56,213 nucleotides of DNA from positions 1-56,213 of the forward strand of contig JAFTZJ010000008.1 of NCBI GenBank assembly GCA_017461045.1, written 5' to 3'. The translations under genes were made by a program, and so were the position numbers. Shown one piece after another: positions 1,247 to 38,514 of this stretch (position 1 is the stretch's first letter; every line of letters begins with the position of its first letter). This DNA comes from Lachnospiraceae bacterium. Lineage in GTDB: Bacteria > Bacillota > Clostridia > Lachnospirales > Lachnospiraceae. The notes under the pieces were generated by a model. That model made no database searches. It worked only from the letters and a program-made list of their open reading frames with translations, and was not told where the DNA came from.

Positions 1247-2275
1247 ATGTTACAGGTTCCAGAGCAAACGAATAAATCAGATATGACCGTATCCTTGGGC
1301 GTGGTAGCATACAATGAAGCGGCAGTTATTGAGTCTATACTAAAAGACATAGCTGGGCAGGACTATCCCCATGACCAAATGGAGATTTTATTAGTAGATA
1401 GTGCATCTTCTGATGATACCCGTAAGAAGCTGGAACTGTTTGCACAACAGAACCAAGAATATGGTTTTCGCAGAATACTGGTTTTGGACAATCCAAAACG
1501 AAAACAGGCAGCCGGTTGGAATGTAGTAATTGCAGAAGCAAAAGAGGATATACTGATTCGAATTGATGCCCACGCATCCATACCAAAGGATTTTGTAAAA
1601 AAGAACGTAGAATTGCATATGGAAGGTGAAATGATTACCGGTGGTCCAAGACCCAATATTATTGATGAACCGACTCCTTGGAAGGAAACCTTATTCTTGG
1701 CGGAGAGTTCTATGTTTGGCAGTAGCATTGCTCCTTACCGGAGAGAAAGTGAACGAAAATATGTTAATTCCATGTTTCATGCCGCCTATCGACGAAGTAT
1801 TTTTGAAGAGGTGGGAGGCTTTAATGAAGCCTTGGGGCGAACAGAGGATAATGAATTACACTATCGAATGCGGCAGGCAGGGTATCAATTTTGTTACGAT
1901 TCGAATATTGTGTCTTACCAACATATCCGGAATTCCTTTTCCGGAATGATAAAGCAAAAATATGGTAATGGATACTGGATTGGAAAAACAGTAAAGGTTT
2001 GTCCCGGATGTCTTTCCTTGTATCACTTTGTACCATTTGCATTTATACTGGGGATTTTGATTACAACAGTTTTGTGTTTTGTTTCATTTCCATGGCTGGC
2101 AATTGCAATGTGGGGATTATATTGGCTTTTAGCAATTGCTATGGCGGTAGTGGGAATTATCGGACAGAAGAAATTTCGGATGAGCGATTTGCTATTACCT
2201 ATGTTATTCTTGATACTTCATGTATCTTATGGCGTGGGAACCGTCATAGGGTTGTGTTCCCCAACGAAAAAGTAG
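1247..2275 (+). CDS. Family 2 glycosyltransferase, ExoA-like, membrane-anchored
   Basis: Transfers a sugar from a nucleotide-sugar donor during polysaccharide assembly at the inner face of the membrane. The GT-A fold begins with SLGVVAYNEAAVIESIL and a DSASSDDT nucleotide-binding segment. An acidic metal-binding motif follows in RIDAHASI, and the catalytic region is GRTEDNELHYRMRQAGY. Two hydrophobic segments near the C-terminus (FVPFAFILGILITTVLCFV and a second one ending in VGIIG) should anchor it in the membrane. The arrangement recalls ExoA-type succinoglycan glucosyltransferases. I place the start at ATG 1247 because AGGAAAGGA lies 7-8 bases upstream; an in-frame ATG at 1223 would add eight residues but has no good ribosome site. 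A perfect terminator follows the stop. Donor and acceptor are unknown. Confidence 0.85.
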   Translation: MLQVPEQTNKSDMTVSLGVVAYNEAAVIESILKDIAGQDYPHDQMEILLVDSASSDDTRKKLELFAQQNQEYGFRRILVLDNPKRKQAAGWNVVIAEAKEDILIRIDAHASIPKDFVKKNVELHMEGEMITGGPRPNIIDEPTPWKETLFLAESSMFGSSIAPYRRESERKYVNSMFHAAYRRSIFEEVGGFNEALGRTEDNELHYRMRQAGYQFCYDSNIVSYQHIRNSFSGMIKQKYGNGYWIGKTVKVCPGCLSLYHFVPFAFILGILITTVLCFVSFPWLAIAMWGLYWLLAIAMAVVGIIGQKKFRMSDLLLPMLFLILHVSYGVGTVIGLCSPTKK

Positions 2276-34429: not shown

Positions 34430-35770
34430 ATGGGAGAGAATAAGATAAATCGTAAAAACTGTTGTGAACAATCACATAATACAATTTTGGCAGCCTTTCA
34501 GACGGTACTGGATAATACGAATGATATGATGTTTGTAAAAGATGCGAAACTTACGTATTTGGCAGCATCCATGCCATTTGTTCGAATGACCGGAAAAGAA
34601 CGCATAAACGAAATTGTTGGAAAGACAGATTTGGAAATCTTTGAAGATGAAGAGTTGGCAAAGCGTTATATTGCAGATGACCGGAAGTTAATGCGTAGTG
34701 GAAGGAATCAGGTTGACTACATTGAGCCGATTGCAGAAGAAAATGGTCAAGTTCGATATGGTTCTACATCTAAATATTTACTTTTAGATGAGGATAATGC
34801 AATTATCGGTGTCTTGGGAGTCACCAAGGATATTACGAAGGATTATTTAGCCCGTCAGCATTACCAGCAGGAAATTAAGTATCTTTTTGAACTTCCGGAG
34901 GATACCTATGCTGTATCTTATATAGATGTGGATAGCTGGCGTATTATTAGTCAACGTAGGCAGAAGATAAGTGACGGAACTGTTCAGGCTTGTCATTCCG
35001 TAGAATCCTTATGTGAAGCAGCAATAGAATCTATTTTAGATGAAAAATGTGATGCTTACGAGTTCTATAGCAATTTTAATGCAGAAACCCTGCGGGAGAT
35101 TTATGAAAGCGGCAGAACGCTTTTGACATTTCGTTATCAACGTTGTATGTCAGATGGTTCTCTTCACTGGGTAAGTAATGATATACGTTTTCGGACAGAT
35201 ATCGATAGCGGTCATCTATGCGTTATGTTATCAGCAAGAAATATTGATAGAGAAAAACAAGAAGAGCAGAAGCTGGTGTTGGCAGCCAAAATGGATAAGA
35301 TGACGATGGTATTGAACCGGGCAACTACCATGGATAGCATTCGGAAGATTTTGGCAGAAGAAACAGAAACGAAGCATGTATTATTCATGGTGGATGTAGA
35401 TAACTTTAAGACACTGAATGATACTATGGGGCATCAAACCGGTGACGAGTTTTTGGTTGCATTGGCAACAGAAATCCGAATGAATTTCCGGGAAACGGAT
35501 GTAGTAGGCCGGGTTGGTGGTGATGAATTCTTCGCGTTAATGCGAAATGCCACGGAGATGCAGACGATTAACAAAAAGGCAGAAGATTTGTTGAAGGCAA
35601 TTAATAAGGTATGTGAAAAATATGCGTCTGTTCAATTGTCAGCCAGCATAGGAATCAGCATCTATCCGGAGCATGGCAAGACATTGGATGCCTTGTATGC
35701 CAAAGCGGATAATGCATTGTATCAGGCAAAACGCAAAGGAAAAAATCAGTTTGTATTTGCATCACTGTAG
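34430..35770 (+). CDS. PAS-GGDEF diguanylate cyclase
   Basis: Soluble 446-residue sensor enzyme. A PAS domain (about 15-140: VLDNTNDMMFVKDAKLTYLA, ending in GVLGVTKDIT) is followed by a second PAS-like region (about 150-280), and then a GGDEF domain with an intact motif (GRVGGDEFFALM, about residue 362). No I-site RxxD is obvious before it. ATG 34430 follows GGAGG; the open frame upstream to 34316 overlaps hydA. It is 64 bases after hydA. It may read redox or metabolic state, but the ligand is not evident. Confidence 0.9.
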   Translation: MGENKINRKNCCEQSHNTILAAFQTVLDNTNDMMFVKDAKLTYLAASMPFVRMTGKERINEIVGKTDLEIFEDEELAKRYIADDRKLMRSGRNQVDYIEPIAEENGQVRYGSTSKYLLLDEDNAIIGVLGVTKDITKDYLARQHYQQEIKYLFELPEDTYAVSYIDVDSWRIISQRRQKISDGTVQACHSVESLCEAAIESILDEKCDAYEFYSNFNAETLREIYESGRTLLTFRYQRCMSDGSLHWVSNDIRFRTDIDSGHLCVMLSARNIDREKQEEQKLVLAAKMDKMTMVLNRATTMDSIRKILAEETETKHVLFMVDVDNFKTLNDTMGHQTGDEFLVALATEIRMNFRETDVVGRVGGDEFFALMRNATEMQTINKKAEDLLKAINKVCEKYASVQLSASIGISIYPEHGKTLDALYAKADNALYQAKRKGKNQFVFASL

Positions 35771-36649
35771 TATATAGTTTAAGAATTGCATAGTTGCTTT
35801 GGAAGGAGCGTGGGATTTGGAATAAGCGAATCCCACGCTCCTTGCTTCAATAGGATTCTTTATAGGTAATTCTACTAAATGTCCAGTATTCAATTCATCA
35901 TTAACAAATTCCCGTATAACACAGGCAACGCCGAGCCCTATCTTAGCAAATTCGATTAACAAATCCATGGAACTGACTTCTAAGACTTGATTAGTTTTGA
36001 TCTGATTCCGGTAAAAATAATCATTAATATATTGTCTGGTAATGTTTTCTTCATCCAACAACATAAGGTTCGCAGATGAAAATAAATCCTGCTGATCCTG
36101 TTCCCGAATAGACAGATTGTCCAGATAGGTTTGTGTGGCAACAAAGGTATCTTGGATTTGTTTGATTTCATTGAAAATAATACTATGCTTGTTCTTTGGC
36201 ACGCCAATTAAACCAATATCAATGGAACCATTTTCCAGCATTTCAATAGTGTGTAAGGTGGATTGGCATTCAATGGTTATTTTGATGTGCGGGTGCTCCT
36301 TAATAAAATCCTGTAAATACGGCAGCAGAATATACTTACATAGAGTAGTACTAACTCCGATTCGAATTTGACCGATACCCAATTCGTTAATATGGCGGAT
36401 TTCCTCTTCCCCGGAATCAATAACCTGAAAAGCTTCTCGAATACGTTCATACAGAATTTGCCCCTCGGTGGTTAATGTCACACCTCTGGAAGTACGATGG
36501 AACAGACTACAACCCAGGTTTTCCTCTAATTTGGAAAGTGTTTTGCTGATGGCAGGCTGACTGATAAATAAAGCATCTGCTGCTTTTGAAATATTCTTGT
36601 ATTTAGCTACGGTGTAAAATACCTTGTAGTGATTCAAATTTTGGTTCAT
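35762..36649 (-). CDS. LysR-family transcriptional regulator
   Basis: DNA-binding regulator of 295 residues. The N-terminal helix-turn-helix (about 1-60) has FYTVAKYKNISKAADALFISQPAISKTLSKLEENLG, the typical LysR pattern (quoted in two parts here as FYTVAKYKNISKAADAL and FISQPAISKTLSKLEENLG). The C-terminal co-inducer domain covers about 90-290. It is divergent from leuC across about 600 bases; LysR regulators often control such neighbours, so control of the leucine genes is a reasonable guess. Its end overlaps the PAS-GGDEF stop region by nine bases, with a perfect hairpin inside the coding sequence. AAGGAC precedes the start. Confidence 0.93.
   Translation of the reverse strand: MNQNLNHYKVFYTVAKYKNISKAADALFISQPAISKTLSKLEENLGCSLFHRTSRGVTLTTEGQILYERIREAFQVIDSGEEEIRHINELGIGQIRIGVSTTLCKYILLPYLQDFIKEHPHIKITIECQSTLHTIEMLENGSIDIGLIGVPKNKHSIIFNEIKQIQDTFVATQTYLDNLSIREQDQQDLFSSANLMLLDEENITRQYINDYFYRNQIKTNQVLEVSSMDLLIEFAKIGLGVACVIREFVNDELNTGHLVELPIKNPIEARSVGFAYSKSHAPSKATMQFLNYILQ
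35803..35843 (+). terminator. Perfect hairpin inside the 3' end of the lysR gene
   Basis: AAGGAGCGTGGGATT (35803-35817) and AATCCCACGCTCCTT (35829-35843) form a perfect 15-bp stem with an 11-base loop, followed by GCTTC on the plus strand. It could end transcripts of the PAS-GGDEF gene although it lies in the coding region of the convergent lysR. Confidence 0.55.
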
Positions 36650-36670
36650 ATGAAGTCCTTTCTTATAAAT

Positions 36671-36862
36671 TGTGGCTTGTTGAAGAGAACAAACTATGTG
36701 GCTCAGAATATATATACTTATCGCAGACCCGCTTTCGCTTCGGCCAGTACGTAGCGGTACTAGGATTGCAAAAAACGCAATCCAAGGACCGACGTACTTC
36801 TAGAGTCTGCTCACAAGTATATATATACATTCGCCACCAATATGTACTAAAAGCAAGCCACA
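36671..36862 (-). ncRNA. Structured RNA-like element, copy 1 (toward lysR)
   Basis: A 192-base element with strong secondary structure. It is closed by TGTGGCTTG (36671-36679) pairing with CAAGCCACA (36854-36862) and an inner AT-rich stem around 36709-36720 and 36815-36827. The core (36723-36810) reads, on the minus strand, TAGAAGTACGTCGG, a GGATTGC/GCAATCC hairpin, GTACCGCTACGTACTGGCC, and a GC-GAAA-GC tetraloop hairpin, closed by GCAGAC/GTCTGC. Copy 2 shares this core with compensatory changes. In this orientation it would be the 5' leader of lysR. I do not recognise the family; a dispersed palindromic repeat is the main alternative. Confidence 0.6.
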
Positions 36863-36879
36863 TTTTATATGTATCGTTA

Positions 36880-36932
36880 GTAGTAAGCTCCGCAATGTTA
36901 TAGTAGTTTACACTTGCGCGGAGCATTACTAC
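36880..36932. promoter_or_regulatory. Inverted repeat with divergent promoter-like elements between the two structured copies
   Basis: GTAGTAAGCTCCGC (36880-36893) is mirrored by GCGGAGCATTACTAC (36918-36932). Each arm begins TTGCGG or TTGCGC on the outward-reading strand. Outward from the arms lie CATATA on the minus side and TATAAT (36939-36944) on the plus side, at 18-19 bases. The centre therefore looks like a duplicated divergent promoter, though the spacers are slightly long. It may instead be a binding site for a dimeric regulator. Confidence 0.45.
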
Positions 36933-36947
36933 AGTCACTATAATTGT

Positions 36948-37143
36948 GTTTATCTGTTTGTGGAAATATGTGGTCGCAGCGAATGAGGATATGTGTTCCT
37001 GCAAAGACCGTAGAAGCACGTCGGCACTTAGGCTGCGTTTTGTGCAGCCTTATGTACCGTTACGTGCTGGCCAGAGCGCAAGCGTGTCTGGCAGGAATAC
37101 ATATGCCTCGAAGCTGCGGTTGTAGATATTCAAATAGATAAAC
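36948..37143 (+). ncRNA. Structured RNA-like element, copy 2 (toward leuC)
   Basis: A 196-base element closed by GTTTATCTGTTTG (36948-36960) pairing with CAAATAGATAAAC (37131-37143), then GGTCGCAGC/GCTGCGGTT and TTCCTGC/GCAGGAA stems. The core has TAGAAGCACGTCGG, a GGCTGC/GCAGCC hairpin, GTACCGTTACGTGCTGGCC and a GC-GCAA-GC tetraloop hairpin. Compared with copy 1, paired positions change together (U-A to C-G) and the GNRA loop changes from GAAA to GCAA, which points to selection on RNA structure in this orientation. It ends before the leuC promoter, so it is likely separate from the leuC leader. Family unknown. Confidence 0.6.
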
Positions 37144-37157
37144 CATAATTTATAGTT

Positions 37158-37210
37158 ATAACAAATATTCGTATTATGTATTTCAATTATAACAAATCCT
37201 ATGTTATGAT
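37158..37210 (+). promoter_or_regulatory. leuC promoter with LysR-type operator dyads
   Basis: TTCAAT (37182-37187), 17 bases, TATGAT (37205-37210). The sequence TTATAACAAAT occurs twice, at 37156-37166 and 37187-37197, 31 bases apart (three helical turns). The second lies in the dyad ATAAC-N9-GTTAT (37189-37207), and the first in a weaker one, ATAAC-N10-ATTAT. These fit T-N11-A type LysR sites overlapping the promoter. Confidence 0.55.
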
Positions 37211-37245
37211 AGCAACAGATTTTAATTCAAAAGGAGGATTTTACA

Positions 37246-38514
37246 ATGGGTATGACAATGACACAGAAGATTTTAGCTGCACATGCCGGTTTGGACGTAG
37301 TAGAAGCCGGACAATTAATTGAAGCTAATCTTGATATGGTATTAGGAAATGATGTAACCACACCGGTTGCAATTCATGAAATGGAGAAATTCAATACACA
37401 GGAAGTGTTATATAAGGATAAGATTGCAATGGTGTTAGAACATATCACACCAAATAAGGATAGTAACAGTGCGGAACACTTTAAGAGCGTAAGAGAATAT
37501 GCCAATTCACACAATATCACCAACTTCTTTGATGTAGGTGAAGTGGGTATTGAGCATGCATTACTTCCGGAAAAAGGATTGGTAGTTGCCGGTGATGCAG
37601 TTATTGGTGCAGATTCGCATACTTGTACATACGGCGCGTTAGGTGCATTTTCTACAGGTGTAGGAAGTACGGATATGGCTGCCGGTATGGCAACCGGTAA
37701 GGCATGGTTTAAGGTGCCGTCAGCAATTCAGTTTGTTTTGACCGGAAAGCCTGCAAAGTGGGTAAGTGGTAAGGACATTATTCTTCACATTATTGGTATG
37801 ATTGGTGTAGACGGAGCATTGTATAAGTCTATGGAGTTTGTTGGAGACGGTATTCAGTATTTATCAATGGATGACAGATTCTCTATGGCAAACATGGCAA
37901 TTGAAGCTGGTGGAAAGAACGGTATCTTCCCGGTAGACGATATTACCATTGAATACCTGAAGGAACATTCCGTAAGAGAATATAAGGTGTATGAAGCGGA
38001 TGAAGATGCAGTATATGATGAAACGTATACTATCGATTTATCCCAGTTAAAGCCAACAGTGGCATTTCCGCATCTACCGGAAAATACCAGAACCATTGAC
38101 AATGTAGGTGATATTAAGATTGATCAGGTTGTAATCGGTTCTTGTACCAATGGACATATTACAGATTTAAGAATTGCAGCAGAGATTATGAAGGGAAGAA
38201 AGGTTGCAAAGGGTATCCGCGTAATTATTATTCCTGCAACTCAGGCGATTTATTTACAGGCAATGGAAGAAGGTTTATTAAAGACATTTATTGAAGCAGG
38301 TGCTATCGTCAGCACACCTACCTGTGGTCCTTGTTTAGGTGGTCACATGGGTATTTTGGCAGCCGGTGAACGTGCAGTTGCTACAACGAATCGTAATTTC
38401 GTTGGACGTATGGGTCATGTAGAATCAGAAGTATATTTGGCTTCTCCGGCAGTAGCAGCCGCATCTGCAATTACCGGTAAGATTTCTTGTCCATGCGAAG
38501 TAATGGGTGAGTAA
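37246..38514 (+). CDS. leuC: 3-isopropylmalate dehydratase large subunit
   Basis: Leucine synthesis: isomerises 2-isopropylmalate to 3-isopropylmalate with LeuD. At 422 residues it is the shorter HacA/LeuC type found in Clostridia and archaea. The aconitase-like [4Fe-4S] cysteines are in [10 protein letters not shown] and [11 protein letters not shown], and the active-site segment [23 protein letters not shown] (two parts, [13 protein letters not shown] and FSTGVGSTD) is intact. AAAGGAGG precedes ATG 37246. It is followed after 21 bases by leuD. Confidence 0.96.

Follow-up and report, generated by a model that had tools for sequence, protein, structure and literature searches.

Two inverted palindromic elements that lie between a LysR-family gene and leuC in a 56,213-nucleotide stretch of Lachnospiraceae DNA (hereafter the window) form a divergent composite (36664-37156, about 493 bp) that probably represents a single copy within a family of short MITE-like DNA transposons, non-autonomous and specific to Lachnospiraceae. 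The family itself, the covariation of its structured core, its dispersal, a strong preference for divergent pairs and, in one subfamily, target-site duplications of mostly 10-12 bp were all observed. An earlier, sequence-only reading of this region had left the choice between a non-coding RNA and a dispersed repeat; the present evidence favours a mobile DNA element with a structured core, for which one subfamily shows target-site duplications.

The two elements were delimited by extension of their palindromic arms. E1, an inverted repeat, occupies 36664-36869 on the minus strand (ends TATAAATTGTGGCTTG and CAAGCCACATTTTATA), and E2 occupies about 36937-37156 on the plus strand (ends ACTATAATTGTG and CCATAATTTATAGT); the two inverted elements with a common core that had been recognised from the sequence are present, with true ends slightly beyond the limits first drawn for them. 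Between them lies a 67-bp spacer (36870-36936), which resembles the spacers of the genome's other paired copies and contains a third inverted repeat (36880-36893/36918-36932). On the left, the LysR-family gene (35762-36649, minus strand; Pfam LysR_substrate and HTH_1) has its start codon at 36649, and on the right leuC (37246-38514, plus strand; Pfam Aconitase, the gene name being that of the earlier reading) starts at 37246. No terminator-like site was found in 36600-37260, and no target-site duplication was visible flanking the composite.

Read directly from the sequence, the shared core consists of TAGAAGTACGTCGG and GTACCGCTACGTACTGGCC on the minus strand in E1 and of TAGAAGCACGTCGG and GTACCGTTACGTGCTGGCC on the plus strand in E2. 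A covariance model (R1) whose training set includes the window copies matched these cores at 36710-36824 with 128.4 bits and at 36989-37104 with 138.2 bits, respectively, and by the consensus of 117 matches the best-conserved parts are 36750-36794 in E1 (minus strand; CGTCGGTCCTTGG - hairpin - CTAGTACCGCTACG) and 37019-37064 in E2 (plus strand; CGTCGGCACTTAG - hairpin - CTTATGTACCGTTACG). The compensating stem changes and the GAAA and GCAA loops described earlier can all be seen in the sequence. Both terminal stems had also been called perfectly paired, which is true of TGTGGCTTG/CAAGCCACA, while GTTTATCTGTTTG/CAAATAGATAAAC contains one G.T pair. The sense strands gave folding z-scores of -8.46 in E1 and -9.18 in E2 and the antisense strands gave -8.56 and -9.80, with 0 of 200 shuffles folding as well in each of the four folds. 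Open reading frames overlap the E1/E2 region, but a coding function was set aside since the stem changes are compensatory.

Throughout the family, the unit measures about 200 bp (about 205) and forms a long hairpin whose tip is the core, some 90-115 nt in length. The consensus of the 117 matches reads CGYCGGTACTTRG, a hairpin with a GTAYTTT loop, and CTTAYGTACCGYTRCG, followed by AGCGNRAGCG. The predicted fold combines a three-way junction, an internal loop and a GNRA hairpin: an outer stem (P1) leads to a long arm (P2-P4), interrupted by a bulge of two bases and by an internal loop (UU/UAY), and to a small GNRA hairpin (P5). Of the 105 tip loops found, 100 fit GNRA, and we would guess from the consensus that the UU/UAY internal loop serves as a receptor contacted by the GNRA loop.

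The sequence-only reading had staked its structural claim on covariation over many homologues, and this held. Both-side changes were found in 34 of the 34 modelled pairs in 79 copies (72 distinct), and standard pairs made up 97.7% of the cells in this alignment. The covariation score, from an alignment that was fitted to the model and so favours structure, was 0.736, compared with 0.207 when shuffled and at most 0.105 with partners slid, the gap to the slid controls being large. At the curated cut-off of Rfam 15, no match overlapped the core in the window or in 81 distinct loci (80 with the core and one TwoAYGGAY locus; 16 scanned at E 0.05, the rest at gathering), and membership of the core in an Rfam family was rejected on these grounds, in keeping with the first impression of a family without a known name. 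When 36500-37300 was searched at E 10, mir-4012 gave a weak match over E2 (25.4 bits against a cut-off of 80). The window's only Rfam match at the curated cut-off is a T-box leader (RF00230; 5950-6170, plus strand, 110.8 bits).

Chance can be excluded because the same pair recurs in its own genome and the core recurs in many others, which also bears out the earlier suggestion of a dispersed palindromic repeat. The source genome (G000; 67 contigs, about 68% complete) contains a second divergent pair (C32 51036-51479) and a solo E2 (C32 91350-91555); its pairs seen whole all have the order E1(-) then E2(+), and its units are bounded by TATAAATTGTGG-like inverted ends. A DNA search gave matches in 13 of 98 genomes, the source genome included. 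The search of Lachnospiraceae with a covariance model, called for from the outset, was carried out with R1, built from 8 own-genome cores, and found 77 of 200 genomes positive; a second model from 79 copies (R2) was positive in 7 of 291 class-wide genomes, again including the source, and all seven were Lachnospiraceae. Both proportions are lower bounds (12-18 candidates scored per genome, strict filters). Of 18 genomes searched in depth, 16 had matches, from 1 to 38 each, and the complete genome of Lachnospiraceae bacterium GAM79 (AP018536.1) had 22 model matches. A core-pattern scan of named genomes returned at least 120 stretches, 100 of which make up the alignment we call A4; many were titled Lachnospiraceae or Acetatifactor, Blautia or Mediterraneibacter, and some Clostridiales or Clostridium. 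The element was also carried by NALB_7961 bins titled Gastranaerophilales, Muribaculum or Muribaculaceae (L133, L149, L175, L209), titles that are probably mislabelled.

Copies that lie close together are almost always divergent. In the A3 and A4 loci, 29 of 30 close pairs (matches at most 800 bp apart) were (-)(+) and one, at 633 bp, was (++); further stretches, partly chosen as pair-like and judged by eye, added 12 (-)(+) pairs, one (++) and one (+)(-) at 795 bp. An exception to the divergent rule is L104 (G154:C21:12424-12914), with three head-to-tail copies at a spacing of 187 bp.

The core also pairs with an RNA already in Rfam. At the 21 of 22 GAM79 loci scanned with Rfam (L290 left out), TwoAYGGAY (RF01731) lay near the core in 13 and Clostridiales-1 (RF01699) in one, seven having neither, and all 14 mixed pairs were divergent. 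Four further divergent core/TwoAYGGAY pairs were found, two in G044 and one each in G224 and G105, so that by eye 17 of 17 such pairs closer than 400 bp are divergent; in G111 a more distant neighbour (L401, about 990 bp) has the orientation (+)(-). Seven of the 13 GAM79 composites have an AGTTAGT/ACTAACT match at both outer ends, with like flanks (e.g. TAAATGGAAAGTTAGT), and the other six have it at one end only, and in G044 the ends have TAAACTGCAG in common by eye. Clostridiales-1 at L284 (1253-1469, minus strand) lies about 30 bp from a core at 1501-1654 (plus strand), in divergent orientation, and a second one was seen at L275 (2338-2499). Six GAM79 matches of equal score, at 1501-1657 in L285-L290, four of which were read, show a core variant whose long arm has additional hairpins and whose small hairpin is longer.

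TwoAYGGAY occurs in 34 of 200 Lachnospiraceae genomes (in 9 of the 34, all 13 scored candidates were positive), namely in 20 of 77 genomes with the core vs 14 of 123 without it. Six of its seven close self-pairs are divergent and one is (++). It is itself a dispersed, often multi-copy element in Lachnospiraceae (e.g. L069 1129-1295 and L285 1263-1425). The mixed pairs are seemingly confined to some lineages, because a partner RNA was seen at just one of 28 loci from named contigs, that of GAM79, and a core lay within 1.5 kb of just 3 of 24 TwoAYGGAY loci. TwoAYGGAY is filed in Rfam as cis-regulatory; one paper has proposed it to be a CsrA-binding sRNA (PMC4333381), and a 2010 paper lists it among probable RNAs, with a cis-regulatory role judged improbable. 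As a tentative extension of our reading, Lachnospiraceae might have a transposon system built of modules, in which structured RNAs (the core, TwoAYGGAY and, at one locus, Clostridiales-1) can replace one another and sit in divergent pairs at the termini of short elements; the conserved recognition unit would then be the folded sense strand rather than the terminal sequence. Were this true, several orphan Clostridiales RNAs in Rfam would be parts of mobile elements and not regulatory RNAs.

The inverted-repeat arms that surround the core vary from lineage to lineage but resemble one another inside any one genome. Terminal inverted repeats in the family start with TATAAATTGTGG, TAGGYRATTGCGAAACT, GTAACAGTTCAGCC or TAAATGGAAAGTTAGT, and a further element end is TATAAATTRTGG. 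Among 48 elements whose ends resemble TAGGYRATTGCGAAACT (the TAGG subfamily; ends with up to 4 differences, unfiltered for the core), 20 are flanked by exact target-site duplications of 9-13 bp, in 17 cases 10-12 bp long; the other 28 have no duplication of at least 9 bp, and 0 of 2256 mismatched flank pairs reached 9 bp. In six genomes, the terminal pattern gave 119 forward and 125 reverse matches, and the reversed-pattern control gave 1. Three elements of 281-289 bp (L450 4105-4385, L453 300-588, L345 1501-1783) have an apparent additional hairpin within the core, and L345 has an 11-bp duplication and L450, by eye, a 10-bp one.

Filled and empty versions of the same site were found in sibling genomes. 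At a GHMP-kinase/gntR site (the kinase gene being ispE by eye), the source genome has a solo E2 and G001 a divergent pair, G002 and G003 have a short intergenic region from which the element is absent, and no model match was found there in G004, G005 and G007; G006, where a contig ends, is left out of the comparison. The leuC site holds the pair in the source genome and in G003 and no element in G005 and G007, and in G006 (L333, G006:C25) it shows a deletion scar, with only GACAAACCATAATTTATA of the outer right arm left; in the genus's three remaining genomes, no leuC was found with the cut-off applied. Because filled, empty and scarred sites occur in siblings, copies evidently insert, can be lost by deletion, and persist while species diverge. 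The copy in the window is old, because its site is occupied in one sibling species and scarred in another, and is thus now mostly inherited vertically.

Neither the 493-bp composite nor its units of about 205 bp contain a recognised gene of their own. No transposase or autonomous relative was found: a DNA search of the source genome gave no parent transposon with the same ends, and in 40 stretches from 4 draft genomes no ORF-bearing element with these ends was among the matches listed. Three candidate autonomous elements of 1.5-2 kb (L440, L448, L427) appeared by eye to be ordinary genes that match the ends by chance. Genes between pairs about 1 kb apart were also rejected as movers, the one in G269 being a DUF2334/polysaccharide-deacetylase gene, that in G421 alike by eye, and the pair in G024 enclosing no transposase-like ORF. 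The largest recurrent cluster of neighbouring ORFs (7 ORFs from 6 loci) fared no better, as the five members tested were ABC transporters, a very common family. Core-less derivatives of 58-59, 61, 88 and 122 bp were among the matches listed; those at L348 1460-1517, L357 60-118, L457 296-354 and L436 321-408, which measure 58-88 bp, have both ends. The core is perhaps dispensable for transposition because such derivatives occur and one of them, the 88-bp element at L436, has a 10-bp target duplication, which may reflect either deletion after insertion or a core that is not needed for movement.

In the mechanism we favour, the lineage-specific inverted arms of each unit of about 200 bp would form a long hairpin with the structured core at its tip, and units would act alone or, as at leuC, as a divergent pair behaving as one composite. 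A putative transposase encoded elsewhere would act on the inverted ends; it is probably of the DDE type, because the duplication length is nearly fixed. The core may be retained because a protein binds its folded sense strand, as RNA or as single-stranded DNA, and this protein would be needed for the spread or the tolerance of the element. Against a MITE-like reading stands the behaviour of the ends, which vary between lineages around a conserved core, the opposite of what an ordinary MITE shows.

Which strand of the core is structured, and in which nucleic acid, bears directly on the leading alternative, that the core is a mobile RNA gene. In 113 of 131 core clusters the sense strand gives a better fold than the opposite strand does (mean -6.0 kcal/mol with RNA parameters), and this advantage is kept when G.U pairs are disallowed (114/131, -2.2) and with DNA parameters (105/131, -1.6), while flanks used as a control showed no bias (63/130). 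The sense strand of the core is therefore supported as the structured one. In P1, G.U wobbles outnumber A.C mismatches by 88 to 22. In a recount with neutral scoring (107 of the 131 clusters, 24 having no anchor), P2 had 5 G.U, 7 A.C and 802 Watson-Crick pairs and P4 had 2, 2 and 513, respectively, and the outer arms, with 177 G.U and 222 A.C, had no sense preference. Two earlier counts spoke more strongly against RNA, namely that on A4 (helix 3; G.U 11 vs A.C 46) and a regex-anchored recount of P2 (9 vs 51; 89 of 141 clusters), but misregister is suggested in both because many of their cells are unpaired. The fold comparison, the regex-anchored and neutral counts and the counts of P1 wobbles and tip loops used clusters from which duplicates were dropped, with one of any two sequences sharing more than half of their 8-mers. 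RNA helices usually hold more wobbles than P2 and P4 show. The structured strand may thus also be single-stranded DNA, because P2 and P4 are near-purely Watson-Crick and the outer arms lack a sense preference. For the conserved RNA structure proposed at the outset, this means that the conserved covarying fold stands, with 34 of 34 pairs, while its action as RNA does not follow, as P2/P4 and the outer arms are without a sense-strand preference.

A mobile RNA gene, in which the core would be a transcribed structured RNA working with a protein in an RNA-dependent step, like wRNA, HEARO and bridge RNAs, with the arms as a mere vehicle, is possible but the less probable account. The sense-strand folding bias (113/131 cores), the excess of G.U over A.C in P1, the GNRA tip loops (100/105) and the divergent partnership with TwoAYGGAY, a predicted RNA, all favour it. 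On the other hand, wobbles in P2 and P4 are scarcer than is usual for an RNA helix, no protein partner was found, and 25 spacers showed no promoter-like enrichment (8.16, vs 7.85 shuffled and 8.36 in the outer flanks).

It is unlikely that the element is a chromosomal structure element (a cruciform, nucleoid or replication site) spread and kept for a function in the host. Its persistence at some sites between species would agree with such a role, as would its chromosomal appearance: neither the window (36600-37250) nor the relative L189 had a match in the plasmid collection, the window had none in the phage collection, and the core pattern gave 0 matches in viral_contigs. L189 had four matches in the phage collection; the three that were fetched (MT836432.1, MT838426.1 and MT836394.1; L386-L388), deposited as bacteriophage, contain the element together with bacterial genes that look like housekeeping genes by eye. 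A phage or plasmid origin was rejected on the missing matches for the window and the core pattern and on the bacterial look of these records. Insertions with perfect duplications speak against maintenance by the host, as does the lack of a match in 123 of 200 Lachnospiraceae genomes, a count made under strict filters that undercount positives.

We consider it very improbable that this is an element of the REP/REPIN type, mobilised in single-stranded form by a Y1 transposase (RAYT) resembling that of IS200/IS605, even though it is dispersed, intergenic and palindromic and favours inverted dimers, as REPs do in the accessible account of them (PMC3733652). Y1_Tnp (PF01797) was found in 37 of 77 core-positive genomes vs 75 of 123 negative ones and had no match in the element-rich G044, G119 and G132; being no commoner in positive genomes, the Y1 transposase was rejected as a partner. 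The unit is moreover about 200 bp and not 20-40 bp long, and Y1 enzymes are not known to generate target-site duplications. Equally improbable is a cis-regulatory or terminator RNA controlling leuC or lysR, which would suit the position in their common intergenic region, occupied in G003 too, but not the same gene pair without the element in G005 and G007, the lack of a terminator-like site in 36600-37260, or the other copies, which adjoin other genes in every orientation (29 ++, 26 --, 12 -+ and 11 +- in the element's frame for the 78 of 117 copies classed with a simple ORF caller; 16 lay inside called ORFs and 23 had no gene on one side).

As an MITE-like transposon, the element is of a known kind. 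It is short and non-coding, reaches 38 matches per genome and has terminal inverted repeats and, in the TAGG subfamily, target-site duplications. Bacterial MITEs such as RUP, Correia/NEMIS and MIC231 are short, non-coding and hairpin-forming, with terminal inverted repeats and target-site duplications, and the Lachnospiraceae element shares this build and the duplications; it differs from them in its conserved interior and in ends that vary between lineages. HEARO and the IS605 wRNA (RF02033, RF03065) are structured RNAs on mobile DNA with non-autonomous copies, but neither model matched in the Rfam searches of the window and loci, and no nuclease gene was seen. TwoAYGGAY resembles the core in being structured and branched, in occurring in Clostridiales and in having no known function. 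Its hairpin loops are AYGGA(Y), whereas the core has the long arm CGYCGGTACTTRG/CTTAYGTACCGYTRCG and a GNRA hairpin, with GTAYTTT and GNRA as consensus loops in place of two AYGGAY hairpins; RF01731 did not match the window at its 43-bit gathering cut-off, nor 36500-37300 at E 10.

The accessible text on REP, REPIN and BIME elements likewise describes intergenic, palindromic, non-autonomous sequences that favour inverted dimers, and defines the REP as a 20-40 bp unit with a GTAG or CGTC tag beside the hairpin (PMC3733652). Here the unit is about 200 bp, there is no Y1 association, target-site duplications are present, and CGTC lies inside a core helix, with no unpaired GTAG or CGTC at the foot of the hairpin. 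Another multi-copy structured motif, MRSC-65-2, has been read as a selfish element; as described in the available part of its source, it is a single long stem with UYCCGG repeats from diverse phyla (PMC11109978), while ours is branched, has another consensus and was found in one family only. No prior description of the core was found in the main text, as far as accessible, of the open-licence PMC literature, including PMC11109978, PMC8040213, PMC3733652, PMC6006769, PMC2864571, PMC11701678 and PMC4333381. The family of mobile structured elements is real and widespread and apparently undescribed; within the reach of these searches, both its branched conserved core and the pairing of that core with an orphan Rfam RNA are new.

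Present in many copies in one of the major groups of gut bacteria and unmatched in its core by any Rfam model, the family merits a name. It matters because in some Lachnospiraceae an element of the same kind bears an orphan RNA with no known function, which suggests a mobile-element explanation for TwoAYGGAY, and it raises the puzzle of a transposon family that keeps its folded interior while its ends change. Such repeats also break draft assemblies: in the source genome, partial copies stand at the left ends of contigs C14 and C36 and at the right ends of C58 and C64, all of which stop inside E1, and we read these four ends as two more pairs split by the assembler.
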